DNA of 58,971 bases. Origin: an uncultured Bacteroidales bacterium. Its GTDB lineage: Bacteria > Bacteroidota > Bacteroidia > Bacteroidales > Bacteroidaceae. Location: the NCBI GenBank assembly GCA_902799985.1, contig CADCCR010000015.1, positions 1 to 58,971 of the forward strand. The letters run 5' to 3'. Shown here in pieces: positions 9,602 to 40,708 of the stretch. The translations under genes were made by a program, and so were the position numbers. Each line of letters begins with the position of its first letter. The first letter of the stretch is position 1. The notes beneath the pieces are model-generated. The model was not told where the DNA came from, ran no database searches, and saw nothing but the letters and a program-made list of their open reading frames with translations.

Positions 9602-9721
9602 TCACGCGTGATAAAATGTTTTGTCACGCGTGAGAAATTATTTTATCACATGTGATAAACTGATTCTTCACACGTGATGAATTGTCTCGTCACGTGTGAC
9701 AAACTGATTCGTTACACGGTT
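9602..9721. repeat. 22-bp-period palindrome array A (TCACGCGTGA class)
   Basis: Five copies of a 10-bp palindrome (TCACGCGTGA twice, then TCACATGTGA, TCACACGTGA, TCACGTGTGA) start at 9602, 9624, 9646, 9668 and 9690, exactly 22 bp apart, with unlike 12-bp A/T-rich spacers. A degenerate sixth unit at 9712 overlaps the stop codon of the AraC-type gene. The array fills the convergent junction between two genes. Confidence 0.92.
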
Positions 9722-10833
9722 GTGTCGCGCATCCAGGTTGTTACGGTCTGTCCCATGCGCTGCTTGAAGGCAAGGCTGAAAGTGCTGTAGCTGTGGTAGC
9801 CGCTTTCGCGGGCCAACTGTTGGGCGGTGAAGGGACGCTTGGCAGCAACCGTCTCGCGATAGAGATTGACAAAATGATTGATGCGCAGATTGTTGATGTA
9901 GGCGTTGTACGACGTGCCCTGTTGGGAGAAATACTGGCTGAGATAGGAGCGGTTGGTGCCAATGGCATGGGCCAGCTGGCTGACGCTCAGGTCGTACTGC
10001 AGGTAGAGTTGCGTGTCTATGCAATGTTGCTGCAGCAAGGGAGCCATTTTGTCGTTGATGGCTTGTGGAAGACTGTTGTCCTCCTGCTCCTCTTCGGCGG
10101 CAGTCTCCTCTTCGGCAGGAAGGGCCAAAGACTGAGAAATACTCAGGTCGCTTAAGGTCTCCACTCGCCACAGGAGATAGCAGACAATCAACATGCCACT
10201 CACCTGAACGATGTATTCGTAAGCCGACCACCCTATGCCATAAATATAGAAGCTGAACAACAGAAAGATGAAGGCCAGTACCACGAAGCTCTGCCACACC
10301 TCCTTGTGCTCAAGGTCGGCATAGTTGTTGCGCAGCCAACGTCCATACTGCTTGACAGCATGCACCATATATATGATGAAGCCAATGCCCAGGAGCAGAA
10401 ACGTGATGTATAGCAATGGCAGGATTATATTGCAAGGATTGAATAATCCATAAACAAAGATTGCAACGAGTGGCGCTACCATCGCGAAGGTAGTCCATAG
10501 CGGCCGACGGCGGTCCTGCAGCATACAGAGCATGACGTTTATTGCCAAAGGAATAACCAGCAAGCTGTCGAGCAGTCCGCCTATCGTATTAAACAGCATT
10601 TTGTCCTCGGGCGAAGTGTAGAAAGCGGCCGGCATGTACCATACATGACTCAAAAATACGGAGAAAAAGAAGGCAGCCGTCCAACGTCGCAACCGTTTGG
10701 ATGACGTGATTTCTGTTGCAAAGGCGTTGCCCTTACGGAAAAGCAGGTAGAAGCCAGCTATTACAGCCAACGTTGCCACCCCTGCATAAAGCATATAGAA
10801 CCAAATGTTTTCCGGAACCCTTAAGTCGTACAT
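9712..10833 (-). CDS. Membrane-anchored AraC-family transcriptional regulator
   Basis: 373 aa. The N-terminal 240 residues hold about seven hydrophobic segments (for example YMLYAGVATLAVIAGFYLLF and VVLAFIFLLFSFYIYGIGW). A Glu-rich linker follows (around residues 250-270), then a C-terminal AraC HTH domain (LSVSQLAHAIGTNRSYLSQYF and ARESGYHSYSTFSLAFKQRM). Such 7-TM plus HTH_18 proteins are common in Prevotella and Bacteroides and are thought to sense a signal at the membrane; the ligand and targets are unknown. A leftward promoter is visible at 10885-10915. The stop codon lies inside the last unit of repeat array A. Confidence 0.88.
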   Translation of the reverse strand: MYDLRVPENIWFYMLYAGVATLAVIAGFYLLFRKGNAFATEITSSKRLRRWTAAFFFSVFLSHVWYMPAAFYTSPEDKMLFNTIGGLLDSLLVIPLAINVMLCMLQDRRRPLWTTFAMVAPLVAIFVYGLFNPCNIILPLLYITFLLLGIGFIIYMVHAVKQYGRWLRNNYADLEHKEVWQSFVVLAFIFLLFSFYIYGIGWSAYEYIVQVSGMLIVCYLLWRVETLSDLSISQSLALPAEEETAAEEEQEDNSLPQAINDKMAPLLQQHCIDTQLYLQYDLSVSQLAHAIGTNRSYLSQYFSQQGTSYNAYINNLRINHFVNLYRETVAAKRPFTAQQLARESGYHSYSTFSLAFKQRMGQTVTTWMRDTTV

Positions 10834-10884
10834 GGTTGGATGTTGTTATTTCATGATTTAAATGTTCGCGTCCGAATCGCTTTG

Positions 10885-10915
10885 CAAAATTACAAATTCT
10901 TTTTCAAATTACAAA
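10885..10915 (-). promoter_or_regulatory. Promoter of the AraC-type regulator gene
   Basis: On the minus strand TTTG (10915-10912), 19-bp spacer, TAATTTTG (10892-10885). This is exact Bacteroidetes spacing, about 50 bp upstream of the start codon. Confidence 0.78.
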
Positions 10916-11229
10916 ATGATGATTCATGGATTCTGTCCCTTTTGAATATATTCAACAGTAAAATGCAAAGTTGGACGCTTGGTATTACCCCCCCCCTCCC
11001 CGTTTGCGGAATTCGTCTTGCTTCGGCATGTCGATGTCCCAAGCGAGAGGAAAGTGCTGAAATGGTAGCACTTGTGCTTCGTCGTTAAGCTTTCGTGCCA
11101 TGTGTCACTCCTGATGCCGGATGGTGAATCAGGGTCGGTTCGATAGCCTGCAGCATGTTCTATTGTTAAATAATCGTAAAAGTTTGGCAAGCGAACATAT
11201 ATTATAATGTATAGTAGGAAGAAATGTTG

Positions 11230-11237
11230 TATCTTTG
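11230..11237 (+). promoter_or_regulatory. -7 box of rpsA
   Basis: TATCTTTG followed by C, 64 bp before the rpsA start. No clear TTTG lies 19 bp upstream, so only the -7 element is supported. Confidence 0.55.
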
Positions 11238-11301
11238 CCGCGCAAATAAAGATATTTGCAAGCGATAATTAACTTATTTATTAACTCTTTAATTAATCTG
11301 T

Positions 11302-13095
11302 ATGGCAGATTTGAAGAATGTTGCTCCTCTGGAAGACTTCGATTGGGAAGCCTTCGAACAGGGTGACAGCAATGCAAACGTGAGCCGCGAGGCTCAGACA
11401 GAGGCCTACGAGGGCTCTCTGAACAAGGTAAGTGACCATGATGTAGTCGACGGTACCGTCATCTCGATGAACAAGCGCGAGGTGGTGGTTAACATCGGCT
11501 TCAAGAGCGATGGTATCATACCTATGAGTGAATTCCGCTACAATCCCGACCTCAAGGTGGGCGATACAGTAGAGGTTTACATCGAGAATCAGGAAGACAA
11601 GAAGGGTCAGCTCATCCTGTCTCACAAGAAGGCACGTGCATCTCGCTCTTGGGATCGTGTGAACGAGGCTCTCAACAACGAAGAAATCATCAAGGGCTAC
11701 GTGAAGTGCCGCACAAAGGGTGGTATGATTGTCGACGTCTTCGGCATCGAGGCATTCCTGCCCGGCAGCCAGATTGACGTCAAGCCCATCCGCGACTATG
11801 ATATCTTCGTGGGCAAGACGATGGAGTTCAAGGTGGTCAAGATCAACCAGGACTTCCGCAATGTCGTTGTCAGCCACAAGGCTCTCATCGAAGCAGAGCT
11901 GGAGGCTCAGAAGAAGGAAATCATCGGCAAGCTCGAAAAGGGTCAGGTGCTCGAGGGTACCGTCAAGAACATCACCAGCTACGGCGTCTTCGTCGACCTG
12001 GGTGGCGTGGACGGTCTCATCCACATCACAGACCTCAGCTGGGGCCGTGTCAGCGACCCGAAGGAAATCGTCGAGCTCGACCAGAAGATCAATGTCGTTA
12101 TCCTCGACTTCGACAACGAGAAGAAGCGTATCGCTCTTGGCCTGAAGCAGCTCACTCCTCATCCTTGGGATGCTCTTGATCCCAACCTCAAGGTGGGCGA
12201 CCACGTTAAGGGCAAGGTTGTCGTTATGGCCGACTACGGCGCATTCATCGAGATTGCTCCCGGTGTGGAAGGTCTCATCCACGTCAGCGAGATGTCTTGG
12301 AGCCAGCACCTGCGCAGCGCTCAAGACTTCATGAAGGTAGGCGACGAGGTGGAGGCAGTCATCCTCACTCTCGACCGCGAGGAGCGCAAGATGTCTCTTG
12401 GCATCAAGCAGCTCAAGGACGATCCCTGGGAGAACATCGAAGAGCGCTATCCCGTTGGCAGCAAGCATACTGCTAAGGTTCGCAACTTCACCAACTTCGG
12501 CATCTTCGTCGAGATTGAGGAAGGCGTGGACGGTCTCATCCACATCAGCGACCTGAGCTGGACCAAGAAGGTGAAGCACCCCAGCGAGTTCACACAGATC
12601 GGTGCTGAGATTGAGGTTTGCGTCCTCGAGATTGACAAGAACAACCGTCGTCTCTCTCTCGGTCACAAGCAGCTCGAGGAGAATCCTTGGGACGTCTTCG
12701 AGACCGTCTTCACTCTGGACAGCATCCACGAGGGCACTATCATCGAAATGCTCGACAAGGGCGCAGTCGTTCAGCTCGAGTACGGCGTGGAAGGCTTCGC
12801 TACTCCCAAGCACCTCGTCAAGGAGGATGGCACTCAGGCTCAGAAGGGCGAGAAGCTGCAGTTCAAGGTGATTGAGTTCAACAAGGAAAGCAAGCGTATC
12901 ATCCTCTCTCACAGCCGCATCTACGAAGATGTACAGCGTGCTGAGGCTCGCGAGGCCAAGAAGACGACCCGCAAGGCTGCCGCTACTCACAAGGAAGAGG
13001 CTCCCGCTATCCAGAACCAGGCTGCCAGCACCACGCTGGGCGACCTCGACGCTCTGGCTGAACTGAAGGCTAAGATGAAGGCCGGCGAGGAGTAA
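11302..13095 (+). CDS. rpsA: 30S ribosomal protein S1
   Basis: RNA-binding protein that helps load mRNA on the 30S subunit. 597 aa with six S1 (OB-fold) repeats: a first at about 50-115, a second at about 135-200, then four clear copies with the pattern G-V-F-V-(D/E)-x-G-V-(D/E)-G-L-I-H, from residue about 217 (TSYGVFVDLGGVDGLIHITD), 300 (VEGLIHVSEMSW), 390 (FGIFVEIEEGVDGLIHISD) and 475. The C-terminal 60 residues are Ala/Lys/Glu-rich. The start is preceded by an A/T-rich leader, as usual where S1-dependent initiation is strong. High use of AAG, CTC and CGT codons fits a highly expressed gene. Confidence 0.97.
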   Translation: MADLKNVAPLEDFDWEAFEQGDSNANVSREAQTEAYEGSLNKVSDHDVVDGTVISMNKREVVVNIGFKSDGIIPMSEFRYNPDLKVGDTVEVYIENQEDKKGQLILSHKKARASRSWDRVNEALNNEEIIKGYVKCRTKGGMIVDVFGIEAFLPGSQIDVKPIRDYDIFVGKTMEFKVVKINQDFRNVVVSHKALIEAELEAQKKEIIGKLEKGQVLEGTVKNITSYGVFVDLGGVDGLIHITDLSWGRVSDPKEIVELDQKINVVILDFDNEKKRIALGLKQLTPHPWDALDPNLKVGDHVKGKVVVMADYGAFIEIAPGVEGLIHVSEMSWSQHLRSAQDFMKVGDEVEAVILTLDREERKMSLGIKQLKDDPWENIEERYPVGSKHTAKVRNFTNFGIFVEIEEGVDGLIHISDLSWTKKVKHPSEFTQIGAEIEVCVLEIDKNNRRLSLGHKQLEENPWDVFETVFTLDSIHEGTIIEMLDKGAVVQLEYGVEGFATPKHLVKEDGTQAQKGEKLQFKVIEFNKESKRIILSHSRIYEDVQRAEAREAKKTTRKAAATHKEEAPAIQNQAASTTLGDLDALAELKAKMKAGEE

Positions 13096-13106
13096 TCCCT
13101 CCGGTA

Positions 13107-13138
13107 ATTCATAATTATCAATTCACAATTCATAATTC
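13107..13138. repeat. A/T-rich AATTCATAATT repeat after rpsA
   Basis: Three near copies of AATTCATAATT or AATTCACAATT lie between rpsA and rnz. The same simple motif occurs upstream of rel (about 7645-7678) and between rnfD and rnfC (44702-44742). Confidence 0.55.
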
Positions 13139-13198
13139 TGAGGGCCGGATGCTTTCAGGGTTATGAGTTGTGAATTTTCTGTTTCTAAACGAAGTACG

Positions 13199-14110
13199 AT
13201 GAACTTTGAACTGAACATACTTGGATGCGGCTCGGCAAAGCCGACGCGTCGGCATCAGCCTTCGTCGCAGATACTGAACGTGCGCGGCAAGTACTTCATG
13301 ATAGACTGCGGCGAAGGGGCTCAGACGCAGATGCAGATGATGGGACTCTCGATGGCCAACATCGGCCACATCTTCATCAGCCACAATCATGGCGACCACG
13401 TCTTCGGCCTGCCCGGACTCATCGGCACGATGGATCTGCTGGGCCGAACGGCTGAACTGCACATCCATGGACCGCAACAGGTGGGCGAGCTCATCAGCTT
13501 CCTGCTGCAGACCTACTACGCCGACATCCAGTATCGTGTCCTCTTTCATCCCATCGACCCTACCATTCATACACTCATCTACGAGGACCGGAGCATCACC
13601 GTCCACAGCATTCCTCTCCAGCATCGTGTGCCATCCGTAGGCTTCCTCTTCCGCGAAAAGCCGCTTCTGCCACACATCCGACGCGAGATGATTGATGCCT
13701 TTCAGATTCCCTTCAGCCAAATCAACAACATCAAGGCCGGAGCATCGTGGACGTTGGAGGACGGCACAGTCATTCCCCATGAGCGACTCACCACACCTGC
13801 TGCCGCCCCGCGCTCGTATGCCTATTGCTCCGACACCGTCTATCTGCCTCAGCTCAAGGATATTCTGCATGGCGTAACACTCCTTTATCACGAAGCGACC
13901 TATCTGCACGAACGGGCTCTCCGAGCTGAGCAGACGCGCCACTCCACAGCTATACAGGCGGCTATGCAGGCTCGCGATGCCGAGGTGGGACAACTTTGTA
14001 TCGGTCACTTCAGCGCCACGGTCAAGGACGAGAGTCTTCTTCTTCAAGAAGCACAGAACATCTTCCCCAACACCGTCCTTGCCCGAGAAGGACTTGTCAT
14101 CAGTATTTAA
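13199..14110 (+). CDS. rnz: Ribonuclease Z
   Basis: Zinc endonuclease that trims the 3' end of tRNA precursors. The start at 13199 (MNFELNILGCGSAKPT) is chosen because it gives the family-typical 303 aa; the in-frame ATG at 13163 would add 12 unconserved residues. Metal motif SHNHGDHVFGLPG is near residue 62; the later ligand region TLLYHEATY, and GHFSATVKDES near the end, match the metallo-beta-lactamase fold of RNase Z. It converges with the M13 peptidase gene. Repeat array C begins 3 bp after its stop and a strong hairpin follows. Confidence 0.95.
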   Translation: MNFELNILGCGSAKPTRRHQPSSQILNVRGKYFMIDCGEGAQTQMQMMGLSMANIGHIFISHNHGDHVFGLPGLIGTMDLLGRTAELHIHGPQQVGELISFLLQTYYADIQYRVLFHPIDPTIHTLIYEDRSITVHSIPLQHRVPSVGFLFREKPLLPHIRREMIDAFQIPFSQINNIKAGASWTLEDGTVIPHERLTTPAAAPRSYAYCSDTVYLPQLKDILHGVTLLYHEATYLHERALRAEQTRHSTAIQAAMQARDAEVGQLCIGHFSATVKDESLLLQEAQNIFPNTVLAREGLVISI

Positions 14111-14112
14111 GA

Positions 14113-14244
14113 ATAAGCTCCCTGCGCTTCCGAAATAAGCGCCCCGCGCTTCCGAGATAAGCGCCCCGTGCTTCCGAGATAAGCGCCTAGCGCTTCCGAG
14201 ATAAGTGCCCTGCGCTTCTGAGATAAACCTTTGCGATGATACGA
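14113..14244. repeat. 22-bp-period palindrome array C (AAGCGC-GCGCTT class)
   Basis: Units begin ATAAGC at 14113, 14135, 14157, 14179, 14201 and (degenerate) 14223, exactly 22 bp apart. The best unit reads AAGCGC-CCC-GCGCTT, a 6-bp-arm palindrome, followed by CCGAGAT. The array starts directly after the rnz stop and ends just before the terminator hairpin. Confidence 0.92.
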
Positions 14245-14245
14245 G

Positions 14246-14283
14246 GAGAGGGTGTGCCATTTATTCTGACACACCCTCTCTTC
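14246..14283. terminator. Terminator hairpin between rnz and the M13 peptidase gene
   Basis: Perfect 11-bp stem GAGAGGGTGTG / CACACCCTCTC with a 13-nt loop, followed by TTCTGT. It lies in the convergent gap and may act on both strands, although neither side has a long T run. Confidence 0.75.
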
Positions 14284-14332
14284 TGTATCTATGCCACAGA
14301 TTCGGGCTAAAAGGCGATGCTTGCTTTTCCCC

Positions 14333-16375
14333 TTACCAGATGGTGACGCGCTCTGCCTTAGGCACGAACATCGGGTCGTCCTCGGTGATGCCGAATGCCT
14401 CGTACCAAGCATCGATGTGCGGCATCTGACCGTTCACGCGCCACATGCCCAGCTGGTGCGGGTCGCTCTTGACGCGCTTCTGTATCTCTTCGTCGCGGAT
14501 GTTCTGCCCCCAGACGTTGGCGTAGGCGAGGAAGAAGCGTTGTTCGGGCGTGAAACCGTCGATGTCGGGCAGGGGAGCATCCTTGGTGGCGTTCTTGAAG
14601 GCTTGGAAGGCAACCATCAGACCTCCGTGGTCGGCCATGTTCTCGCCAAGGGTGAGGGAGCCGTTGGCATGCAGTCCTGGCAGCACTTCGATGCTGTCGT
14701 GGAAGGCACGCATCACTTGGATGCGCTCTTCGAATTGCTTCGTGTCCTCCTCGCTCCACCAGGTAACGAGGTTGCCGTTCTTGTCGTACTTGCTGCCTTG
14801 GTCGTCGAAGCCGTGCGTCATCTCATGGCCGATGACGACGCCGATGGCTCCGTAGTTGAATGCATCGTCGGCCTGCATGTCGAAGAATGGCGGTTGCAGG
14901 ATGCCTGCGGGGAAGCAAATCTCGTTGGTCGTGGGGTTGTAGTAGGCGTTGACCGTCTGTGGCGTCATGTACCATTCGTCGCGGTCGACGGGCTTGTTGA
15001 ACTTCGTCCGGATCATGTCCTTTATCTCCCATTCGCCCACGGCAAGCATGTTGAGGAGGTAGCTGTCGCCAATTTCGAGGTCGCTGTAGTCTTTCCATTT
15101 GTCGGGATAGCCCACTTTGACGTAGAAGGCATCGAGCTTCTCGTGAGCCACTTTCTTTGTCTCGTCGCTCATCCATTCCTGCACGTCGATGCGCTCGCCG
15201 AGTGCCACTTGCAGGTTGGCAATGAGCTTCTCCATGCGAGCCTTTGCTTCGGGCGGGAAGTACTTGGCCACATAGAGCTGACCAAGAGCTTCGCCAAGAC
15301 CGCCTTCAACAGCAGCCACAGCACGCTTCCAGCGCGGACGGTCCTCCTCCTTGCCGCTCAGCACCTTGCCGTAGAAGCCGAAGTTGAGGGCGCGACTCTC
15401 GTCGTCGATGAAGGACGATGCCATGTCCATGGCGTGCCAGAGATAGATGTTCTGCAGGGCTTCGGGCGTCTCTTCCTTCAAGACATTCTCCACCTCGTGA
15501 ATGCTGGCAGGCTGGCCGAGGCACACTTCCTTCACGCCTTCCATGCCGAAGTTCTGGAAGAAGCCGTCCCAGTCAATGCCAGGGAACTGCTCTTTCAGCT
15601 CTGCGTAGGAAATCTTATTGTAGTTGGCCTCCGGGTCGCGAAGCTCTGTACGGCTCTTGCTTGCCTCTGCAATCCGCGTCTCAATGCGGAGGACGTCCTC
15701 ACTAATGCGCTTGGCATCTGCTTCACCAAAGCCCGAATGCTGGCTGAGGTCGACGATGTACTTCTGGTAGGCCTTGCGAATCTCCTCCGACCGCTCGTCC
15801 TTGTCAACGTAATAGTCTTTCTGTCCGAGCGTCAGGCCACCTTGAACGATGGTCACGAGGTTGTTCTTCGAGTCCTTCTCGTCGGCAGAGATGTACATGG
15901 CGAACAAGCCGGGCACACCTTGCCTCTGCATGCGTGGCCAAACATCCTTGAGCCAGTTGTTCGTGATTTCGCGGGTGTTCTGGTAACCGTCGCAGAGCAG
16001 GAAGCCTTCGAGGTCGTACCAACAGTATTCGCCGTTCAGCTTCGCGCTGTCCATCGCCGAGTTGTAGAGGTCGGCAATCTTCTGCGCGATGGAACCCTTC
16101 TCGTTCTCCTTTGCAGAGACTTCCTCGATGAGCGAGCGCAGACGCTCGTTGTTGTTCTCCTGTAGCACGTCGAACGAGCCGAAGCGACTGTACTCGGCAG
16201 TCAAGGGATTTGCTTTCTGCCATCCGCCTGTGGCGTACATGTAGAAGTCCGTGCCGGGCAGATAAGTTGTGTCGAGGTTGGCGAGGTCGATGCCAGACGC
16301 CAGTTGCTTGCCGCCAGGTGTGCAAGCCGCAGCCATTGCAGCAAGTGCATAGACTGTAAAGAGATGCTTCTTCAT
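14333..16375 (-). CDS. M13 family zinc endopeptidase (neprilysin/PepO-like), lipoprotein
   Basis: 680 aa. The signal peptide ends in a lipobox with Cys18 (ALAAMAAAC), so it is probably a lipoprotein in the periplasm or outer membrane. Peptidase_M13_N fills the first two thirds. The catalytic core has the substrate-binding NAYYNP motif, the zinc motif VIGHEMTHGFD and the third ligand in ENMADHGG. The protein ends in a conserved Trp (VTIW) as in the family. It cleaves oligopeptides. It is the last gene of the leftward rhamnosidase, ABC-F, peptidase group, but 165 bp of repeats separate it from the ABC-F gene, so co-transcription is uncertain. Confidence 0.95.
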   Translation of the reverse strand: MKKHLFTVYALAAMAAACTPGGKQLASGIDLANLDTTYLPGTDFYMYATGGWQKANPLTAEYSRFGSFDVLQENNNERLRSLIEEVSAKENEKGSIAQKIADLYNSAMDSAKLNGEYCWYDLEGFLLCDGYQNTREITNNWLKDVWPRMQRQGVPGLFAMYISADEKDSKNNLVTIVQGGLTLGQKDYYVDKDERSEEIRKAYQKYIVDLSQHSGFGEADAKRISEDVLRIETRIAEASKSRTELRDPEANYNKISYAELKEQFPGIDWDGFFQNFGMEGVKEVCLGQPASIHEVENVLKEETPEALQNIYLWHAMDMASSFIDDESRALNFGFYGKVLSGKEEDRPRWKRAVAAVEGGLGEALGQLYVAKYFPPEAKARMEKLIANLQVALGERIDVQEWMSDETKKVAHEKLDAFYVKVGYPDKWKDYSDLEIGDSYLLNMLAVGEWEIKDMIRTKFNKPVDRDEWYMTPQTVNAYYNPTTNEICFPAGILQPPFFDMQADDAFNYGAIGVVIGHEMTHGFDDQGSKYDKNGNLVTWWSEEDTKQFEERIQVMRAFHDSIEVLPGLHANGSLTLGENMADHGGLMVAFQAFKNATKDAPLPDIDGFTPEQRFFLAYANVWGQNIRDEEIQKRVKSDPHQLGMWRVNGQMPHIDAWYEAFGITEDDPMFVPKAERVTIW

Positions 16376-16390
16376 AGTTGTCTTTTCTTT

Positions 16391-16543
16391 GTTTCGTTAT
16401 GTTGTGATTGCGTTATTACGATATTTCGTTATTACGATGTTTCGTTATTACGTTATTTCGATGTTTCGTTATTACGATGTTTCGATGTCTCTTTATGACG
16501 ATTCGTCTTTTCATTCTTTCATTTTTTCATTCTTTCATTTTTA
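16391..16543. repeat. Octamer repeats (CGTTATTA / CGATGTTT), then ATTCTTTCATTTT repeats
   Basis: 16391-16505 is built of 8-bp blocks CGTTATTA and CGATGTTT (or close variants) in irregular alternation, about eleven blocks. 16508-16543 then holds inverted copies of the GAAAGAATGAAA motif also seen at 4082-4153. Together they fill the gap between the ABC-F and M13 peptidase genes. Confidence 0.75.
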
Positions 16544-18454
16544 TATCAGCGCTTCCCATTCCTCTTCGGCTTGTTTGAGCTGTGCCTTCAGGCGGCCATG
16601 CTTCTCGTAGAGCGAGACGTCCTGACTGCCTTCGGGCGTTGACATCTGGTCTTCGAGGATGCGGATGGCAGCTTCGAGCTGCGTCACCTTGTCCTCTGCC
16701 TCTTGCAGGGCTTTCTCTTTCCGCTTCTGTTCGCGGGCAAGGGCTTTCTGCTCGGCATATGTAAGTGAAGAGTGAAGAGTGAAGAGTGAAGAATCAGAGT
16801 TACTTTTGCCTTCTGATTGGTTACTATTATTCTTCACTCTTCGTTCTTCGTTCTTCACTTTTTCTGTCCAATCGTAGATGCCTCCCAAATGCTCCCTGAC
16901 CTTGCCGCCGCCGAACTCATAGACCTTCGTTACGAGACCATCGAGGAACTCGCGGTCGTGGCTCACCACGATGACTGTGCCGTCGAAGTCGCGGATGGCA
17001 GCCTTGAGCACGTCCTTCGAGCGCATGTCCAGGTGGTTCGTCGGCTCGTCGAGGATGAGGCAGTTGACGGGTTCGAGCAGGAGTTTAATCATGGCCAAAC
17101 GGGTTCGCTCTCCGCCGGAAAGGAACTTCACCTTCTTGTCGCTGGCCTCTCCGCCGAACATGAACGCGCCGAGGATGTCGCGTATCTTGGTGCGGATGTC
17201 GCCCCTTGCCACGCGGTCGATGGTGTCGAAGACGGTCAGCTCGCCGTCGAGCAGTTGTGCCTGGTTCTGTGCGAAGTAGCCTATCTGCACGTTGTGCCCG
17301 ACCTTGAGCATGCCGTCGAAGGGAATCTCGCCCATGATGCACTTCACGAGTGTCGTCTTTCCCTCGCCGTTTCGCCCGACGAACGCCACCTTCTCGCCTC
17401 GCCTGATGGTGAGGTTGACGCCGCGGAACACGCAATGGTCGCCGTACGTCTTGCCCACCTCGTCGCAGATGACTGGGAAGTCGCCGCTGCGCACCGAGCA
17501 GGTGAACTTGAGGTGCAGGGCGCTGTTATCCACTTCGTCCACCTCGATGGGCACAATCTTCTCCAGCTGTCTTATCTTCTGCTGCACCTGAATGGCCTTC
17601 GTGGCTTGATAGCGGAAGCGTTCGATGAAGGCTTTGGCATCAGCAATCTCGCGTTGTTGGTTTTCCAGGGCGCGAAGTTGCTGCTCGCGACGTTCGGCAT
17701 GAAGCGTGACGTACTCGTCGTACTTCACTTTATAGTCGTATATCTTGCCGCAACTGATTTCGATGGTGCGGTTCGTTACATTATTAATAAACGCGCGATC
17801 ATGGCTGACGAGCACGACGGCGTTCGCGCTTGTGGCAAGGAAGTTCTCGAGCCATTGGATGCTCTCGATGTCGAGGTGGTTCGTAGGCTCGTCGAGGAGA
17901 AGGACGTCGGGGTGCTGCAGCAGGAGCTTTGCCAGTTCGATGCGCATGCGCCAGCCGCCGCTGAACTCGCTCGTCGGGCGGTCGAGGTCTTCGCGTCGGA
18001 AGCCGAGTCCCTGCAAGGTGCGCTCCAATTCGGCCTGATAGTTCATGCCTCCCATCATCTGGAAGCGTTCGTTGAGGTGCGTGAAGCGTTCCACGAGCGA
18101 CATGTACGCATCGCTCTCATAGTCTGTACGCTCTGCCAGTTGGCTGTTCAGGCTGTTGAGCTCGTCCTCCATCTCTGTGATGTGGTCGAAGGCACGCCCG
18201 GCTTCCTCGCGTACGGTGCGTTCGTCGGTGAGCACCATCACCTGCGGCAGGTAGGCAATCGTTGCGTCGCGCGGGACGCTGACGGAGCCGCTTGTGGGTT
18301 GTTGGATGCCTGCTATTATCTTCAGCATCGTGCTCTTGCCGGCCCCGTTCTTGCCGACGAGGGCGATGCGGTCGTGGTCGTTGATGACATAGCTAACGTC
18401 CGTAAAGAGTGGACGTGCGCTGAACTCTACGCTTAAATTATCTATCGAAACCAT
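16541..18454 (-). CDS. ABC-F family ATPase (ribosome-associated, Uup/EttA-like)
   Basis: 637 aa, two ABC domains and no membrane segment. Domain 1: Walker A VGKNGAGKSTMLKI (near residue 35), signature SGGWRMRIELAKLL, Walker B LLLDEPTNHLD. Then a charged linker (residues about 240-290), and domain 2: VGRNGEGKTTLVKC, SGGERTRLAMIKLL, LILDEPTNHLD. The C-terminal tail is Lys/Glu-rich and probably coiled coil. ABC-F proteins act on the ribosome in translation or antibiotic protection; the exact branch cannot be fixed here. Odd: between domain 2 and the tail is a ~33-residue insertion encoded by a palindromic repeat (16763-16861) that is also found in glnS. The start codon is 3 bp from the rhamnosidase stop, so the two are probably co-transcribed. 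Confidence 0.94.
   Translation of the reverse strand: MVSIDNLSVEFSARPLFTDVSYVINDHDRIALVGKNGAGKSTMLKIIAGIQQPTSGSVSVPRDATIAYLPQVMVLTDERTVREEAGRAFDHITEMEDELNSLNSQLAERTDYESDAYMSLVERFTHLNERFQMMGGMNYQAELERTLQGLGFRREDLDRPTSEFSGGWRMRIELAKLLLQHPDVLLLDEPTNHLDIESIQWLENFLATSANAVVLVSHDRAFINNVTNRTIEISCGKIYDYKVKYDEYVTLHAERREQQLRALENQQREIADAKAFIERFRYQATKAIQVQQKIRQLEKIVPIEVDEVDNSALHLKFTCSVRSGDFPVICDEVGKTYGDHCVFRGVNLTIRRGEKVAFVGRNGEGKTTLVKCIMGEIPFDGMLKVGHNVQIGYFAQNQAQLLDGELTVFDTIDRVARGDIRTKIRDILGAFMFGGEASDKKVKFLSGGERTRLAMIKLLLEPVNCLILDEPTNHLDMRSKDVLKAAIRDFDGTVIVVSHDREFLDGLVTKVYEFGGGKVREHLGGIYDWTEKVKNEERRVKNNSNQSEGKSNSDSSLFTLHSSLTYAEQKALAREQKRKEKALQEAEDKVTQLEAAIRILEDQMSTPEGSQDVSLYEKHGRLKAQLKQAEEEWEALI
16763..16861. 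repeat. Palindromic GTGAAGA element inside the ABC-F gene
   Basis: Plus-strand left arm: four GTGAAGA heptamers followed by ATCAGAGTTACTTTT. After an 18-nt middle comes a right arm of CTTCACTCTTCGTTCTTC type. The arms pair to form a long hairpin. Read on the gene strand it is open and encodes VKNEERRVKN... followed by SNSDSSLFTLHSSL. The same element lies in glnS at 31406-31483. Confidence 0.88.
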
Positions 18455-21143: not shown

Positions 21144-21206
21144 TTTTTGCCGCATCCTTTGCCCTATTGGGGCAAAATAGAATGAAGCAAGCGGCTCGCG
21201 ACACCC

Positions 21207-21404
21207 CTTCTGACTCCAAGCGCCGTCCTCTCAGTCCTCAGGCGACATCCCTTCTGACTCCTGGCCACATCTTCTTTGACTTCAGACCACATCTTCTTTG
21301 ATTCCAGGCTTCAACCTCTCAGATTCCAGACCACATCTTCTTAGACTTCAGGTTTCAACCATTCTGACTCCAAGCGCCGTCCTCTCTGACTCCAAACAAC
21401 ATTC
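21207..21404. repeat. 22-bp-period array F (CTTCTGACTCCAAGCG class)
   Basis: Nine consecutive 22-bp units, typically TCTCTGACTCCAGACCACAT plus two bases, with strong divergence in the second half. It lies in the divergent gap between the rhamnosidase and LRR-lipoprotein genes, upstream of both. Unlike arrays A-E and G, the units show no clear palindrome. Confidence 0.9.
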
Positions 21405-21472
21405 TCCTCTTTCGCCAGCAACCAAATCTCTCACTTTGCACCACAAAATTCTTCATCGCCTGCGATAAAACT

Positions 21473-21556
21473 ATTTCCAAGGCTTTGAAATAAATTTCCA
21501 AGCCTCTGAAATATATTTCCAAGCCTTTGAAATATATTTCCGTGCCACTGAAAAAG
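21473..21556. repeat. 21-bp-period array (ATTTCCAAGCCTTTGAAAT)
   Basis: ATTTCC recurs at 21473, 21494, 21515 and 21536, exactly 21 bp apart. The unit is ATTTCCAAGCCTCTGAAATAT and the last copy is degenerate (CGTGCCACTGAAA). It starts 68 bp after array F ends, in the same intergenic region. Confidence 0.88.
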
Positions 21557-21653
21557 TTTTGACGAATTTGTCCTTGCGCCGAGAAGGAAATTGTTCTGAG
21601 TTAATTATTATTAAATGTCGCCCCTCGATGCGTGTCCTTCTGTGCCTTTTTCG

Positions 21654-27313: not shown

Positions 27314-28645
27314 ATGAACATAGAAGAATTATACGGCATATATCTGCAACATCCGCAGGTGACGACGGACAGCAGGAACTGTCCCGAAGGTTCCATCTTT
27401 TTTGCCCTTCGGGGAGCGTCGTTCGACGGCAATCAGTTCGCCATGCAGGCGCTCGAGAAGGGCTGTGCCTATGCGGTTGTCGACAACAAGGAGGTGGCAG
27501 AGCAGGACGAACGTCTCATCCTGGTGTACAATGTGCTGAGGACCTTGCAGCAGCTGGCAGCTCATCACCGTTGTGCGTGGGGCGGACCTGTGCTTCAAAT
27601 CACCGGCACCAACGGCAAGACGACCACCAAGGAGCTCATCGGTGCTGTCCTCGCAAAAGGCAAGAATGTACTCATCACCGAGGGAAACTTCAACAATCAC
27701 ATTGGTGTGCCGCTCACCTTGCTGCGCATCCGGCCCGATGAACACGACTTGGCTGTCATCGAGACGGGAGCCAATCACCCGGGCGAGATAGCACGCCTCT
27801 GCCGACTGGTGCAGGCCGATTGGGGACTCGTCACCAACGTCGGACGCGCTCATCTTGAGGGCTTTGGCAGCTTCGAGGGCGTGAAGCAGACCAAGGGCGA
27901 GCTCTACGACGACCTTCATCAGCGTGGCAAGCAGGTCTTCCTGAATGCCTTGGACGACGATATCCTGCAGATGGCCCTCCAGCGTGGCTTTACCCTCGGC
28001 ACGGATGCCTTGCCCTACGTGGAAGGTCGCGTCAAGGACATTACGCCTTACCTCGTGATAGAATGGCGTGCCGACCCCGACCAAGATTGGCATCGCGTCG
28101 ATACAAAGCTTGTCGGAGCCTACAACATCAGCAACCTGCGGGCAGCCATTACCGTCGGTCTTTACTTTGGCATCTCGCTCGAACAGATTGACGAGGCGCT
28201 GACAGACTACCGTCCCACCAACAGCCGCAGCGAGTATCTTTGGGCAGGGAACAACCGTCTTATCATCGATGCCTACAATGCCAATCCCTCGAGCATGGCG
28301 GCAGCTCTGACTAATTTCTCGCTCTTGAGCAATCCTTATAAGATGGTGATACTCGGTGATATGCGGGAGCTCGGTGAAGATAGTCTCGAGGAACATCGTC
28401 GCGTGGTGAAGCGATTGCAGGAGATGAACCTGGATCGGATTTGGCTTGTCGGTAAAGAGTTTGCAAAGGTTGCGGAGAAAGACATGCGCGTCTTCAAGGA
28501 TGTGGAGGAAGTGAAGGCTGCGCTTCGCGAAGAAACGCCTCAGCATACCACCATTCTCATCAAGGGGAGTAATGGCACAAAGCTCTATCAATTGCGCGAA
28601 ACGCTGATAGAGCTTTTAGAAAAGGACGAGCCGCTTCAGCAATAA
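27314..28645 (+). CDS. murF: UDP-N-acetylmuramoyl-tripeptide--D-alanyl-D-alanine ligase
   Basis: Adds D-Ala-D-Ala to UDP-MurNAc-tripeptide, the last cytoplasmic step of peptidoglycan precursor synthesis. 443 aa. N-terminal domain with DSRNCPEGSIFFALRG, central ATPase with P-loop ITGTNGKTTTKELIGAVL and GNFNNHIGVPLTLLR, and C-terminal ligase domain with IIDAYNANPSSM and LGDMRELGEDS. It stands alone rather than in a dcw cluster, as is common for murF in Bacteroidetes. Its TAA stop is part of the first unit of repeat array D. Confidence 0.97.
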   Translation: MNIEELYGIYLQHPQVTTDSRNCPEGSIFFALRGASFDGNQFAMQALEKGCAYAVVDNKEVAEQDERLILVYNVLRTLQQLAAHHRCAWGGPVLQITGTNGKTTTKELIGAVLAKGKNVLITEGNFNNHIGVPLTLLRIRPDEHDLAVIETGANHPGEIARLCRLVQADWGLVTNVGRAHLEGFGSFEGVKQTKGELYDDLHQRGKQVFLNALDDDILQMALQRGFTLGTDALPYVEGRVKDITPYLVIEWRADPDQDWHRVDTKLVGAYNISNLRAAITVGLYFGISLEQIDEALTDYRPTNSRSEYLWAGNNRLIIDAYNANPSSMAAALTNFSLLSNPYKMVILGDMRELGEDSLEEHRRVVKRLQEMNLDRIWLVGKEFAKVAEKDMRVFKDVEEVKAALREETPQHTTILIKGSNGTKLYQLRETLIELLEKDEPLQQ

Positions 28646-28729
28646 GCACGGGGCGCTTCCGGAATAAGCACGAGGCGCTTCCGAAATAAGCGCGGGGCGC
28701 TTCGGCAATAAGCGCGAGGAGTTTTGTGC
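28642..28729. repeat. 22-bp-period palindrome array D (AAGCGC-GCGCTT class)
   Basis: Four units beginning ATAAGC at 28642, 28664, 28686 and 28708. The third reads AAGCGC-GGG-GCGCTT, a perfect palindrome. The first unit contains the murF stop codon. Same class as arrays C and E. Confidence 0.9.
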
Positions 28730-30294: not shown

Positions 30295-30426
30295 CTTTAC
30301 TCGTGATGTTGACTGACTAAGCACGTGTCGTTGGCAAACTAAGCACGTGTTGTTGGCGAACTAAGCACGTGTTGTTGGCAAACTAACCACGCTTAGTTGG
30401 CTGACTATGCACGTGATGTTTTGCTG
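30295..30426. repeat. 22-bp-period array B (CTAAGCACGTG class)
   Basis: Six units starting at 30295 (degenerate), 30317, 30339, 30361, 30383 and 30405, exactly 22 bp apart, with the form CTAAGCACGTGTTGTTGGCAAA. The GCACGTGT core resembles the TCACGTGTGA palindrome of arrays A and G. It lies between glnS and the TPR gene, which run in the same direction. Confidence 0.92.
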
Positions 30427-33808: not shown

Positions 33809-33837
33809 TTGCCTCCATCCTCCGTGCCATTCCATAA

Positions 33838-33985
33838 ATAAGCGCCTTGTGCTTCTTCAATAAGCACAAGGCGCTTCTTCAATAAGCACGAGGCGCTTCC
33901 GCGATAAGCGCAGGGCGCTTCTTCAATAAGCGCGAGGCGCTTCTGAGATAAGCGCCTTGTACTTTTGGAATAAGTTCGCGCTTAT
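33838..33985. repeat. 22-bp-period palindrome array E (AAGCGC-GCGCTT class)
   Basis: Seven units beginning ATAAGC (ATAAGT in the last) at 33838, 33860, 33882, 33904, 33926, 33948 and 33970, exactly 22 bp apart. Units read like AAGCGCGAGGCGCTTCTGAG. The last unit overlaps the stop codon of the downstream C10 protease gene (33982-33984). It fills the convergent junction. Confidence 0.93.
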
Positions 33986-37182: not shown

Positions 37183-37196
37183 TTTATTTGTGAGCT

Positions 37197-40100
37197 TTAT
37201 TTACCTGCCATCAGGTTGAGTATCATTACGAAGTCAGCGATGTCCACCACGCCGTCCTTGTTGATGTCGGCCAAAGCTTTGTCTGCTTCGGCATCGCCAG
37301 CCATTACGTTCAGAATGCTGACGGCATCGGCGATGTCTATTACAGCATCGCCATTGATGTCACCCGTCACGACGACGATGGCCTTGGGCACTTCCGGCAG
37401 GACGATGCTCTCCAGCCGCAGCTCTTCCGGCAGAGTAGTCGTGAAGTACGAGGTGAGCCCGGTCATTGCCGTGTTGAGTACCTTGTATTCGAAGGCTGTG
37501 CCTTCCTCGTTCATGACGTAGCAGTCCTTCATTACCGGAGCATATGTGACACCGTGGAAGTGGTATTCTTCCGTCGTGACAACCATCTTGTCGGAGCCAG
37601 TTCTAAAGAAGGGCACGTCGAGCGAACGGAACACGAGGGAACGTCCGGCCATCGTGGAGTCGGCTGCAATGATGTAAGGTGTGTTGCCGCGCAGGATGGT
37701 GGCAGGCTGGAAGATAATCTCGCCATTGTCGGCCTGTGCAGCGAACTCGTAAATCCAGAAGTGGTTGAGGCTGTCGCCAAGTGTCACGGGAATGCTGTCC
37801 AGGAAGATGGAGTCTGCCTCGAATGGCATCGTGAAGGCATGCCAGCCGGTGCCCTTCTCCGTCTCGGGGAAGGTGTAGGTGAAGGATGCGCTGTCGGCAT
37901 CGAAGGTGACAGGCAAGTAATAGGGATTGTCGTTGACCAGGTTGATGTGGCTGGCATGTCCGCCGCTGACGGCATTCGACTCGAGTATGCTTGTCGGCAC
38001 AGCCATGTCGGGAGCAAAGGCATAGATGGTGTTGGGATTCTTGTTGGGCATCAGTCGCGTGAGGTTCGCACAGTCGGCATATATGCCACAGATTGTTGTG
38101 CCGGCCGTTATTGTCGGGCGTCGTGCCATGCCTGCTATCACGCCGTTGTTCTTCCACGTCAGCAAGCCGCTGCCCATACTCCAACCGCCTAAGTCCCAGA
38201 CGCCGCCGTTACCTAATGCACCATCCTGGTTGACATAGCTGGCAGCAATGTAATACTTGTCTCCCTCATTCAGGCCGTCGAAGTCGAACTCGACGCTGGC
38301 AATCTTTGCCGGACCGATTTCGATGCTGTAAGTGTGGCTCGAACCACTCCAGGCAGAGCCTTGTCCATTGGGCTGCCGCCACAGCTGTAGGCGAATCTTT
38401 CCGTTGAAGTTCACCCTGGCATTGTTCTTGATGGCAGCCTTGCCGACAAGCCGTTTGCCATAGACGGTACCGCTGAGGGCATTGGTGATGGTGTAGGAGC
38501 TGACGGAAAGGTTGGCTTTGACGGCTTTCGCTGCCTCTACGATTTCCACGGTGCCTTGGCCCACTTGTCCGCTACCGTCGCTGCCTGTGCAGAACCACAG
38601 GTTGTAGGTTCCCGTCTCTTCGGGCGTGAAGAAGTATGATATCTCTACTGTCTCGCCCTTGCGTACTGTAACCATCGAACGGCTTTCGGTATAGATCTTG
38701 TCCGATGTCTTGCTGGCGAAGAAGCGAATCTCCCTGTAGTATTCGTTGCCGTAGTTGTGGTAGGTCACTTTCACCTCCTGTTCTGTGCCGGCGATGCGTG
38801 TGCCGGGGAATGTGATGGTGTCGATGCCGATGTATTCTTCGTTTTTGATGTCGATGGGAGTCAAAGTGACATTACCCGTACTGTCCACTACGGCTTCGAT
38901 ATAATGGTTGCGCAGATTGTACTTCGTGCGCCATTCGGTGCTTCTCGTTGTCTTGCTGGCAGGCGAGAGCCTGTAAGTGCCTTCCGGAAGTTTGTTCTTG
39001 ATTATGAAGGTCTTGGTCTGAGAAGAATTGGCTGCCATTCCGGTGATGGTTTGCTGAGCTCCGACGACGGAGAGGCCGCCGTCCTCGTCCTGCTTGACGA
39101 TAGCCGTGTGGTAACTGCCGGAAGTCGTTGTCCTGTTTTCGAAGGTTGCCTTGATGGATGTGCCGCCCGTGACGGCAACGTCCTTGATGAAGAGATAGGT
39201 GTCGGCGTTGTTGTTGTCGGGCAGGCGAAGGTTGAAGAGTGCGCGCTGGCTCATGCTGTAGCCGTCGCTGCTGCTGCTGGCGCCGATGCCGCTGTTGTCG
39301 CCCGGGTTGAGGATGCCGACGAGGAACCAGCCATTGCTGCCGCCTCCCCAGCCCCAGTTGAGGTGGAAGAGGTTGTCGCCGTCGAAGCCGTCGAGCACGA
39401 AGGCATGGCCGCCACCCGATGAGAAGCCGGAGCAGAGCACGGGATAGCCTTGTTCTATCTCGTTGTAAATCATGTCGAACCAATCGTCGATGCTGTAGTC
39501 GCGTCGTTCGCCTACGTAGCAACTGTTATCGTAGCCGAAGTACTTGATGAAGGCTTCGGCACTGAAGTTGGCGCCGGAGGATGGTCCCCAACCCATCTTG
39601 ACAGCTTGTCCGCAATAGAGCATGAGGTTGGCAACAGCTGTGTCCTGCGTGTTAGCATGGTCTATGTCTATCCAGGAATAGGTGTCGCGCATGTTCTCCC
39701 AGTCGATGATGCTGTTGCGAGGTATGGCCTTTGCGGTGACCGTCTTCGAGGTTCCGTTGTCCATGTTGTAGGTATTGGAATGGGCAGGAATGATGGCCTT
39801 GGTCTTTTCGGGGTGCTTGTAGAAGTACATGACCTGAGCCATAGCTGTTGCCGTACAGCCTGTTGCAGGATAATGCTGTGTGCCGTCCTCCTTCTTGTAA
39901 TACTTCGGACAGGTGATGTTGTAGGGACTTCCCTGGTTCCATCGTGTCGTAAGGAGTTCGGGCACGCTGTGCTTGGTGGTGCGAACCCTGTTGCGCTTCC
40001 TCAATGCCGGAGAGTCGGACTTCAGGTCGTTGTCGATGATGTATTTGATTTGGTCGGCATAGAGCTGCAGCCAGGAACGCATGTTCTCGGGAATGTTATC

Positions 40101-40403
40101 GGGGTCGAATGTGCCTTGCTCGACATAACCGAGGATTGGTTCTGTGCGGTCATCTCCAGAGACAATGACATAGCCTCCGTCATTTCCGGCGTTGAAGACA
40201 TAGTAGTAGGTGTCAGCCTCTTCTGCTGCCTGTGCATCCTGTTGAGGAGCAGCCCTGAATGGTTTCTGGACAGCATCGATGCTTTTGCCTTTTGCCTGCA
40301 TGAAGGTTCTTGCTGTGTAGAGTGCTGCCTGCTTCCCGATAGGCTCTGCCGATGTTGCAATGGCAATGCAGAGACCAATGATAAAAACAAAAGTCTTTTT
40401 CAT
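37197..40403 (-). CDS. Secreted C10 cysteine protease, tandem paralogue
   Basis: 1068 aa with the same layout as its neighbour: signal peptide (1-19), propeptide, catalytic Cys183 (PATGCTATAMAQV), catalytic His in GGGHAFVLDGFDGDNLFHL, beta domains and a dockerin-like end (DINGDAVIDIADA, DINKDGVVDIADF). The last ~300 residues are nearly identical between the two proteins, while the N-terminal halves differ more and the middle (about residues 400-560) differs most. This indicates a duplication, possibly kept similar at the 3' end by gene conversion. It is the upstream gene of the pair. The leader region contains repeat array G. Confidence 0.94.
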   Translation of the reverse strand: MKKTFVFIIGLCIAIATSAEPIGKQAALYTARTFMQAKGKSIDAVQKPFRAAPQQDAQAAEEADTYYYVFNAGNDGGYVIVSGDDRTEPILGYVEQGTFDPDNIPENMRSWLQLYADQIKYIIDNDLKSDSPALRKRNRVRTTKHSVPELLTTRWNQGSPYNITCPKYYKKEDGTQHYPATGCTATAMAQVMYFYKHPEKTKAIIPAHSNTYNMDNGTSKTVTAKAIPRNSIIDWENMRDTYSWIDIDHANTQDTAVANLMLYCGQAVKMGWGPSSGANFSAEAFIKYFGYDNSCYVGERRDYSIDDWFDMIYNEIEQGYPVLCSGFSSGGGHAFVLDGFDGDNLFHLNWGWGGGSNGWFLVGILNPGDNSGIGASSSSDGYSMSQRALFNLRLPDNNNADTYLFIKDVAVTGGTSIKATFENRTTTSGSYHTAIVKQDEDGGLSVVGAQQTITGMAANSSQTKTFIIKNKLPEGTYRLSPASKTTRSTEWRTKYNLRNHYIEAVVDSTGNVTLTPIDIKNEEYIGIDTITFPGTRIAGTEQEVKVTYHNYGNEYYREIRFFASKTSDKIYTESRSMVTVRKGETVEISYFFTPEETGTYNLWFCTGSDGSGQVGQGTVEIVEAAKAVKANLSVSSYTITNALSGTVYGKRLVGKAAIKNNARVNFNGKIRLQLWRQPNGQGSAWSGSSHTYSIEIGPAKIASVEFDFDGLNEGDKYYIAASYVNQDGALGNGGVWDLGGWSMGSGLLTWKNNGVIAGMARRPTITAGTTICGIYADCANLTRLMPNKNPNTIYAFAPDMAVPTSILESNAVSGGHASHINLVNDNPYYLPVTFDADSASFTYTFPETEKGTGWHAFTMPFEADSIFLDSIPVTLGDSLNHFWIYEFAAQADNGEIIFQPATILRGNTPYIIAADSTMAGRSLVFRSLDVPFFRTGSDKMVVTTEEYHFHGVTYAPVMKDCYVMNEEGTAFEYKVLNTAMTGLTSYFTTTLPEELRLESIVLPEVPKAIVVVTGDINGDAVIDIADAVSILNVMAGDAEADKALADINKDGVVDIADFVMILNLMAGK

Positions 40404-40708
40404 AGTTGTTAGCTTTAACTTATTTTTCTCTTATCTCTTTTTGCTGAACCGATGGGAATATGTCAAAATCAAAAAGGCCGAGTGTCAGTCCTTAAGTTTC
40501 GAACTTAGAAGCTGCACGTGTGAACTTTGCTTTTATCACGTGTGAACTTTGCTTTTGTCACGTGTGAACTTTGTTCTTGTCACGTGTGATAATTGTCTTT
40601 GTCACGTGTGAACTGAAGTTATATCAAGGCATCTTTCTGCTTCTGACACATTCCCTCGTTCGGTTTAGCGAAAATGTTGTTTTGATGATTTGCTGTTATT
40701 CTTTTCTT
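40404..40708. other. Intergenic region between galE and the C10 protease pair
   Basis: 305 bp on the leader side of the protease genes and the tail side of galE. It contains array G (40514-40623). No other ORF is credible; a 60-aa frame over 40571-40753 runs into galE and looks spurious. Confidence 0.6.
40514..40623. repeat. 22-bp-period palindrome array G (TCACGTGTGA class)
   Basis: Five units with core TCACGTGTGA (first one GCACGTGTGA) at 40514, 40536, 40558, 40580 and 40602, exactly 22 bp apart. The 12-bp spacers are of the type ACTTTGCTTTTG or TAATTGTCTTTG. The core equals that of array A, 31 kb away, but the spacers differ. Confidence 0.93.

Follow-up and report, generated by a model that had tools for sequence, protein, structure and literature searches.

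Intergenic tandem repeats in bacteria are usually taken for slippage products or genotyping markers. One member of the Bacteroidales is Porphyromonas gingivalis. Its BrickBuilt element, a minisatellite combined with a miniature inverted-repeat transposable element (MITE), has a 23-nt unit of one sequence in 19 copies, with a leader, a tail and small inverted-repeat ends, the units standing head-to-tail without spacers at dispersed and always intergenic positions (PMC4596501); the element is also mentioned in PMC5771137. Plasmid iterons are tandem direct repeats of 17–22 bp (22 bp in R6K and pPS10) that are bound cooperatively, and half a helical turn inserted between two iterons abolishes the cooperativity (PMC4980987). 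The window analysed here, a 58,971-bp stretch that is contig 15 (CADCCR010000015.1) of the draft genome of an uncultured gut bacterium of the Bacteroidales (GCA_902799985.1, hereafter G000; 3.05 Mb, 215 contigs, 79% complete), carries seven tandem arrays between genes whose units follow one another at a 22-bp step. Within one bacterial order, many species carry such arrays, dozens of them unrelated to one another, and what hardly varies among them is a length and not a sequence. The pattern suggests a cellular component that reads the spacing of the units and not their letters. Tentatively, with a chance of being right that falls somewhat short of even, the arrays are regarded as iteron-like phased protein sites whose two-turn spacing is kept by selection.

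An initial annotation of the window had named seven arrays with a strict 22-bp period, and a self-match scan at every lag from 10 to 60 gave seven segments at lag 22, matching all seven places, and none at lags 19, 20 or 23; the segments at lag 44 were the same seven arrays again. A single segment at lag 21 (21453-21569) is separate from the 22-bp set, and one octamer-type array at about 16375-16521 accounts for lags 16, 24, 40 and 48. Tandem Repeats Finder (TRF), which allows indels, returned period 22 at all seven arrays. Both methods bear out the annotation, the arrays being more widespread than it had noted, with one correction of position: array 28642 (arrays are called here by the start first assigned to them) begins about 20 bp earlier, at 28622 by TRF (Table 1).

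Beyond the window, the own-genome sample took in twenty further stretches (~380 kb), giving 438,896 bp or about 14% of the genome. With arrays defined by 70% self-match in a 66-bp window at lags 8–80 (ungapped over ~88 bp), the sample held 45 arrays at lag 22, 11 at lag 21 and 2 at lag 24, with none at 19, 20, 23 or 25; one block-shuffled copy of the 439 kb held none at lags 15–30. By TRF (arrays of at least 66 bp, units of 19–25 bp, multiples folded), there were 48 arrays at 22, 13 at 21 and 1 at 23, with none at 19, 20, 24 or 25. Array density in this sample is inflated because the stretches were picked partly from contigs known to hold the main family of units described below, and period played no part in the choice. 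Nine stretches from outside the contigs listed for that family (L001-L007, L011, L012; 176 kb) held 10 arrays at lag 22.

The annotation had proposed a comparison with related Prevotella genomes, whereas the named genomes that come closest are metagenome-assembled genomes (MAGs) of Bacteroidaceae and Bacteroidales, and nothing in the analysis identifies the bacterium as Prevotella. By ribosomal protein S1, the nearest (89–92%, the source genome's own records possibly excluded) are MAGs named as Bacteroidaceae, Bacteroidales, Prevotellaceae and Paraprevotella, some labelled yak reticulum or water buffalo caecum. Within the genus, 22-bp arrays are present in sampled stretches or loci of G012, G024, G035, G008, G036, G033, G016, G003, G015, G005, G119 and G109 and of the sister species G065 and G079, with units mostly unrelated to those of G000, the exception being G036, which shares the TCACGTGTGA core with window array 40514. 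G033 also carries one array at 20. No 22-bp array was found in the sampled stretches of G013, G014, G017, G025, G004, G021, G032, G023, G002, G115, G088, G126, G080 and G103, and the period may have shifted by one in some lineages, since the 40 kb sampled from G017 hold one 23-bp array (L075:19642-19771, GTTAACCT core) and none of 22 bp. Outside the genus in the same order, one 22-bp array occurs in G059 and none in sampled stretches of G055, G057, G051, G043 and G054; another 120 kb from G051, G057 and G059 added none. A set of 80 named Bacteroidales loci around rpsA (1.40 Mb, genes included) held 14 arrays at 22, 6 at 21, 2 at 23, 1 at 24 and none at 20. In 560 kb of sampled sequence from the phylum's other classes and the class's other orders, none of the lags from 10 to 60 gave an array.

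Each unrelated unit was then counted a single time per set, the sets being G000, its genus and the 80 named loci; arrays with a midpoint inside a called gene, a shorter internal period or fewer than three usable units were left out, as was locus L034 (G005). The count came to 52 non-redundant intergenic arrays at 22, against 10 at 21, 2 at 23, 1 at 20 and 1 at 24, and the remaining lags between 15 and 40 together gave 7. The broad spread of periods that, in the initial annotation, would have pointed to simple random tandem duplication is not what these genomes contain.

The constancy of the step extends to single units, which were located register-free by their match to the array consensus. 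Single steps were exactly 22 in 205 of 207 cases in G000 and in all 180 elsewhere (385 of 387 in total), the two exceptions in G000 being a 21 and a 23 that stand side by side and restore the register. Longer gaps were whole multiples of 22 in 5/5 cases in G000 and 3/8 at other loci, and off-register units numbered 4/271 in G000 and 19/258 in the others, against 5 and 6 chance hits, respectively, when a single shuffled consensus was used for each array. Neighbouring units differ at 18.2% of positions in G000 (862 substitutions) and 20.8% at other loci (866); spacing is kept, as the annotation had suggested, despite this 18–21% substitution. Indels were at 0% in 40 of the 48 TRF arrays of 22 bp. 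In intergenic DNA outside arrays, G000 and its sisters differ by 141 indels and 1,194 substitutions (~12 per 100), a ratio that, applied to the array substitutions, leads one to expect about 200 array indels; an aligned class pooling 21- and 22-bp arrays (227 substitutions, 11 indels) was not used in the argument.

These counts bear on whether the arrays might be neutral minisatellites, born of replication slippage and homogenised by recombination, with 22 bp inherited from one ancestral repeat. Such an origin would suit a single superfamily making up 31 of the 45 arrays, main-family units in G065 that are closer to one another than to their orthologues, and the variation in array presence between sisters, yet it sits poorly with the number of non-redundant 22-bp units (40 for the genus, 13 for the order set), with the near absence of indels and with the lack of comparable arrays in the 560 kb of other orders and classes, and is very improbable. 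Slippage with a range of periods is likewise disfavoured by the period counts and by the scarcity of indels, the latter in a scan that favours indel-free arrays.

Unit consensus sequences were compared in all rotations and on both strands with single linkage at a threshold of 16/22, where 3,000 shuffled comparisons never exceeded 15/22. The 45 own arrays resolved into one superfamily of 31 and 14 singletons, amounting to fifteen unrelated unit groups in about 14% of the genome. The superfamily links AAGCGC-NNN-GCGCTT units, CTAAGCACGTG units and in-register mixtures of both, its most distant members matching the first at just 11–14/22. The different sequence classes first proposed for the window therefore stand in part: 9602, 21207 and 40514 lie outside the superfamily at the whole-unit level, while 14113, 28642, 30295 and 33838 all join it. 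Several arrays switch unit type along their length (L020:3066-3397, L015:3160-3378, L015:8320-8577, L019:2306-2545, L019:10887-11036) and hold the 22-bp register throughout, except L020:3066-3397, which has a 21/23 slip near its end.

The suggestion that every palindrome faces the same side of the helix is partly supported, many units, including those of 21207, being without a palindrome. Dyad symmetry stays at the null level in the 14 own arrays outside the superfamily (mean 4.71 of 8 pairs, null 4.73), for which reason palindromes were rejected as a universal feature; it is mildly raised in 30 arrays of other species (mean 5.7 vs 4.92), 6 of which have at least 7/8 pairs where ~0.6 would be expected. 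An AT/GC wave of period 22 was also rejected, its power being 0.19 against a null of 0.25 in the 14 own arrays and 0.13 against 0.24 in 34 arrays of other species; the power of 0.42 (null 0.25) across all 45 own arrays belongs to the main family only, since the wave is absent in the 14 and below null in the 34. Along the unit, conservation is clustered in the 34 other-species arrays (0 of 1,000 permutations as clustered; 10/34 singly at p<0.05) and in the 14 G000 arrays outside the superfamily (reached by 9 of 1,000 permutations; 3/14 singly at p<0.05). Outside the main family, arrays tend to combine a conserved core with a linker whose letters vary at constant length, and the main superfamily has, instead of one core, two conserved arms with a variable loop and a variable linker (in G000, arms 68–99% conserved, loop 27–56%, linker 54–73%). 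The motif ACGYGT, picked post hoc, is present in 8 of the genus's 40 non-redundant units, where the null mean is 0.66 and none of 300 null sets exceeded 4.

Clustering of this kind is informative about a copying process with a built-in 22-bp ruler (e.g., staggered nicking with fill-in, or rolling copying of a 22-nt intermediate) that would duplicate any sequence and leave the arrays as a functionless by-product. Such copying would explain the independence from sequence more easily than binding does, with 52 non-redundant units sharing one period, and would fit array L017:4294, which both sisters lack at the corresponding site. Near-identical intergenic two-copy pairs are also commoner at 21 and 22 than at 19, 20 and 23, both in the genus (13 and 14 against 1, 0 and 0) and in the named loci (7 and 8 against 0, 0 and 1), but pairs in G000 are not special to 22 (5 at 21, 6 at 22, 7 at 24), and among the pooled pairs of G000, genus and named loci those at 14 bp are far commoner and those at 15 bp nearly equal (127 at 14, 24 at 15, 28 at 22). 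Ruler copying also predicts uniform divergence along the unit and an ordinary indel rate after birth, whereas conservation clusters outside the main family and indels hardly accumulate, and it is judged unlikely. Between the two mechanisms that the annotation had offered, cooperative binding and fixed-register copying, binding is favoured, given the clustering of conservation in arrays other than those of the main family and the scarcity of indels between units that differ by 18–21%.

Synteny with G065, the closest relative compared, extends over nearly the whole window. G065 keeps an array at the orthologous sites of 28642 (core changed to GCTCTT), 33838 (also with a changed core) and 30295 (unit preserved, 19/22 identical). 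No array was detected in G065 at the matching place of 9602 and no 22-bp array at that of 21207; at the site of 14113 there is no detected array but one unit-like remnant and a different element that is hairpin-like by eye, and 40514 is absent, its flanking matches standing ~62 bp apart in G065 vs 222. Where the sister keeps an orthologous array, the period stays and the main-family unit changes, so that the loss of period in close relatives, which had been named as a sign of random duplication, is not observed.

At six main-family sites, the G065 arrays match other G065 arrays at an average of 17.6–20.0/22 and the G000 orthologue at 9–17, and five of the six G000 arrays are closer to other G000 arrays than to the orthologue (exception 33838, 16.1 vs 17); in four comparisons with G079, the orthologue was closer in two (20/22) and not in two (12 and 9). 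The core difference between sisters is genome-wide: GCGCTTCNNNNATAAGCGC sites number 259 in G000, 18 in G065 and 128 in G079, and GCTCTTCNNNNATAAG sites 2, 223 and 162, respectively. These main-family sites are dispersed over many contigs; GCGCTTCNNNNATAAGCGC is absent from 132 of 139 genus species searched, and GCTCTTCNNNNATAAG has 0–2 sites in 11 other species searched. The arms of the main family in G065 are often mismatched (position 8 is A in 61% and C in 36%; its partner, position 16, is T in 92%).

Hundreds of sites of one palindromic family, with species-specific cores in convergent and tandem gaps, recall the repetitive extragenic palindromes (REP) and bacterial interspersed mosaic elements (BIME), which PMC3733652 describes as high-copy, mostly intergenic palindromes favouring gaps between unidirectional and convergent genes, and as tagged palindromes of 20–40 bp with spacers of variable length, one group having a linked transposase. 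As selfish palindromes spread by a REP-associated tyrosine transposase (RAYT), the arrays could have acquired a species-specific sequence, but REP and BIME are without a fixed 22-bp step, and one period across unrelated, non-palindromic units is left unexplained. By eye, the main-family consensus AAATAAGCGC-NNN-GCGCTTCCG has neither a GTAG nor a CGTC tag. Y1_Tnp matches are weak in the family-rich species (best E 2.8e-6 in G000, 5.9e-5 in G065 and 5.7e-6 in G079; genomes 75–79% complete) and strong in G119, G035 and G013, where the family pattern has 5, 0 and 2 sites. A REP-like origin is on this evidence quite improbable, and a RAYT transposase is disfavoured as the agent, there being no correlation with arrays seen in genomes whose incompleteness may hide such a gene.

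In the own-genome sample, 16 arrays lie in convergent gaps, 18 in tandem gaps and 9 in divergent gaps, the last two falling inside a called gene and at the edge of a stretch; genes were called by a home-made codon scorer, so that individual gene ends may be off. Background gaps of at least 100 bp, array-bearing ones included, comprise 31 convergent, 93 tandem and 41 divergent (165 in total), placing arrays in convergent gaps more often than the background (16/43 placed arrays vs 31/165; binomial p 0.005). Some convergent gaps are almost wholly array (e.g., 33838), and array 14113 begins 3 bp past the RNase Z stop codon. Of the 18 tandem-gap arrays, 13 are closer to the upstream stop than to the downstream start, and 23 of the 27 arrays in tandem or divergent gaps are at least 80 bp from a start codon.

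Placement by stop codons and in convergent gaps would be expected of RNA elements, that is, of transcribed arrays folding into gene-end hairpins that terminate transcription or protect mRNA ends. Seven of ten folded arrays are more stable than the shuffle mean by more than 1.5 standard deviations (z-scores: 9602 -5.94, 14113 -1.53, 28642 -4.11, 30295 -2.94, 33838 -6.65, 40514 -2.42, L017:12750 -3.23), and at two sites G065 carries a different element, hairpin-like by eye, in the position of the G000 array, which points the same way. The other three (21239 +1.35, L017:4301 +0.95, L009:10254 -0.32), however, fold no better than shuffles and yet share the step, the mismatched arms of the main family in G065 also speak against pairing, and RNase P RNA is the sole Rfam match in the window at gathering score, with none on the arrays. 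RNA hairpins were accordingly rejected as the common factor, and an RNA role is regarded as improbable. The hairpin-like element itself, AACGGATTAAACGG ... CCGTTTAATCCGTT, occupies two gene-end sites in the sisters where G000 has a 22-bp array (Table 1).

Table 1. Coordinates of the repeat arrays and accompanying features (window positions unless a sampled stretch or locus, L, is given).
Feature	Coordinates	Strand	Context
22-bp array, 5-6 units, core TCACGYGTGA	9594..9718	.	convergent gap, DUF4301 gene (+) / AraC-type regulator (-)
22-bp array, 5 units, AATAAGCGC-NNN-GCGCTTCYGAG type, main superfamily	14113..14226	.	convergent gap
22-bp array, ~9 units, CTTCTGACTCC type, no excess dyad symmetry	21200..21397	.	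divergent gap
Separate 94-bp element, 21-bp period, AAAACTATTTCC ... GAAAAAGTTTT	21467..21560	.	dispersed-family member (AT-rich), outside 22-bp set
22-bp array, 4 units, main superfamily	28622..28719	.	convergent gap after murF
22-bp array, 5-6 units, CTAAGCACGTGTYGTTGGC type	30302..30420	.	tandem gap
22-bp array, 6-7 units, main superfamily	33837..33974	.	convergent gap ~170 bp, mostly filled by array
22-bp array, 5 units, TCACGTGTGA + AACTTTGCTTTTG-type linker	40514..40614	.	tandem gap
Bacterial class A RNase P RNA	50637-51056	-	
AT-rich 21-bp-period element	L017:12566-12686		dispersed
AT-rich 21-bp-period element	L005:16026-16141		dispersed
AT-rich 21-bp-period element	L208:16911-17020		dispersed
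Array upstream of rpsA	L129:9720-9828		named Bacteroidales locus
Array upstream of rpsA	L137:9706-9832		named Bacteroidales locus
Array upstream of rpsA	L190:9649-9768		named Bacteroidales locus
Array upstream of rpsA	L145:9576-9693		named Bacteroidales locus
Hairpin-like element (by eye)	L093:17485-17732		sister species (G065)
Hairpin-like element (by eye)	L209 near 14200-14300		sister species
Hairpin-like element (by eye)	L210 near 15300		sister species

The reading of the arrays as phased protein sites draws on the spacing, on how few indels there are, on the clustering of conservation along the unit and on the concerted change between sisters. Each array would present between four and roughly twelve protein-binding sites, aligned head to tail with a step of 22 bp, or about two helical turns, along which copies of an oligomerising DNA-binding protein could pack cooperatively. 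Selection would retain the step and the core (~8–15 bp by eye), allowing the letters of the linker to drift at constant length, and the placement between transcription units, often by stops and mostly off starts, could make the arrays boundary, terminator or nucleoid-organising sites. Protein binding, oligomerisation, selection as the cause and the effect of binding are what we infer from the sequences, and one genome with about fifteen unrelated unit types would call for several proteins or for one with a loose preference.

Several points weigh against phased protein sites. At 10.5 bp per turn, a 22-bp step slightly exceeds two turns, and fifteen unrelated groups would require many specificities or a loosely specific protein. 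The main superfamily shows no clustering of conservation (the observed value is reached in 984 of 1,000 permutations), most single arrays, with few units each, are non-significant for clustering, the 34 other-species arrays are not all independent, and ACGYGT is found in 0 of 13 non-redundant order-level units. Only 3 of the 7 window arrays (28642, 30295, 33838) are matched by an array in G065, and several genus members, G115 (29 kb) and G088 (56 kb) included, are without arrays in the sampled stretches. The array scan, being ungapped over ~88 bp, favours indel-free arrays, so the true indel depletion is smaller than the apparent one; that it is real is argued by the TRF result and the register-free unit search.

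A bolder proposal, possible though on balance doubtful, is a spacing-reading system of the Bacteroidales without known counterpart that works on the chromosome in two-turn steps and is largely independent of sequence, either through a protein assembling on any regular 22-bp array, with a species-specific core rewritten genome-wide, or through a 22-bp-ruler enzyme. If a protein reads the arrays, they would constitute a chromosome-wide binding system of gut Bacteroidales found via spacing alone, and the genome-wide change of core would be a natural experiment in the co-evolution of a protein with its binding sites, which number in the hundreds. If the arrays are instead built by an enzyme, they would reveal a ruler-based DNA duplication activity.

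Distinct from the 22-bp arrays, most of the 11 arrays at lag 21 in G000 constitute one AT-rich family, with a length of 94 bp in the 5 of 11 where an exact end pattern matched. This 21-bp-period element adjoins a 22-bp array in several places (L005, L006, L017 and the window), and the copy in L017 is present at the matching place in sister species. Within a few hundred bases upstream of rpsA, 4 of the 80 named Bacteroidales loci have a 21- or 22-bp array, each with a different unit. Heptamer and some octamer arrays (AGTGAAG, GAGTGAA, TTCTTCG and others) were also reported by TRF, in the window at 16764, 23877, 31406, 31452, 44706 and elsewhere, the 7-bp period accounting for 31 of 189 TRF places in the 439 kb sample.

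Among the literature matches listed, drawn from a scope with subscription journals mostly outside it, no title concerned 22-bp arrays in Bacteroidales, and the annotation's statement that no named system fits comes close to right, with BrickBuilt (PMC4596501) and iterons (PMC4980987) near in form. LytTR was the one named DNA-binding candidate tested, because the sites of two Bacteroides LytTR operons have 11-bp direct repeats 11 bp apart (a 22-bp step) with a sequence that varies across species and a spacing that is kept (PMC6193735). Those sites are pairs just upstream of promoters, whereas the arrays here lie near gene ends. Of 14 LytTR loci, 6 have a 22-bp array within ~3.3 kb, and in L247, the sole mapped case, the array is on the 3' side of the regulator. 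LytTR was rejected as a general agent, with no match in 4 of 12 genomes searched (G109, G035, G036, G005), each array-bearing, in genomes that are 84–89% complete, where single losses may be gaps.

Borg genomes resemble G000 in having many tandem repeats of independent origins scattered over one genome, and differ in that their units are perfect, A-rich and of varied length (for example 18, 20 and 21 nt) with about half of them in genes (PMC9879509), as opposed to the nearly constant 22 bp and intergenic position here; the intergenic tandem repeats covered in PMC9426551 are of Planctomycetota only. With iterons, the arrays share tandem direct repeats at a fixed helical spacing, but iterons belong to a plasmid origin and are read by its Rep protein (PMC4980987), while the present sites are dispersed and of many sequences. 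BrickBuilt (PMC4596501) is the nearest described repeat found: it has nearly the same unit length, a head-to-tail layout and an intergenic position (43 of the 45 own arrays lie between called genes). It differs in its ends, in its 23-nt unit as against 22 bp in all seven window arrays, and in its single sequence as against many unrelated units. MITE-like ends were rejected for the 22-bp arrays, since no flanking inverted repeats were detected in 70-bp flanks of the 45 arrays (mean inverted match 5.69 vs 5.86 for mismatched pairs of flanks; 0/45 reach 9 bp, where 1.05 were expected). The separate 94-bp element with its 21-bp period is nearer to BrickBuilt in form than the 22-bp arrays are.

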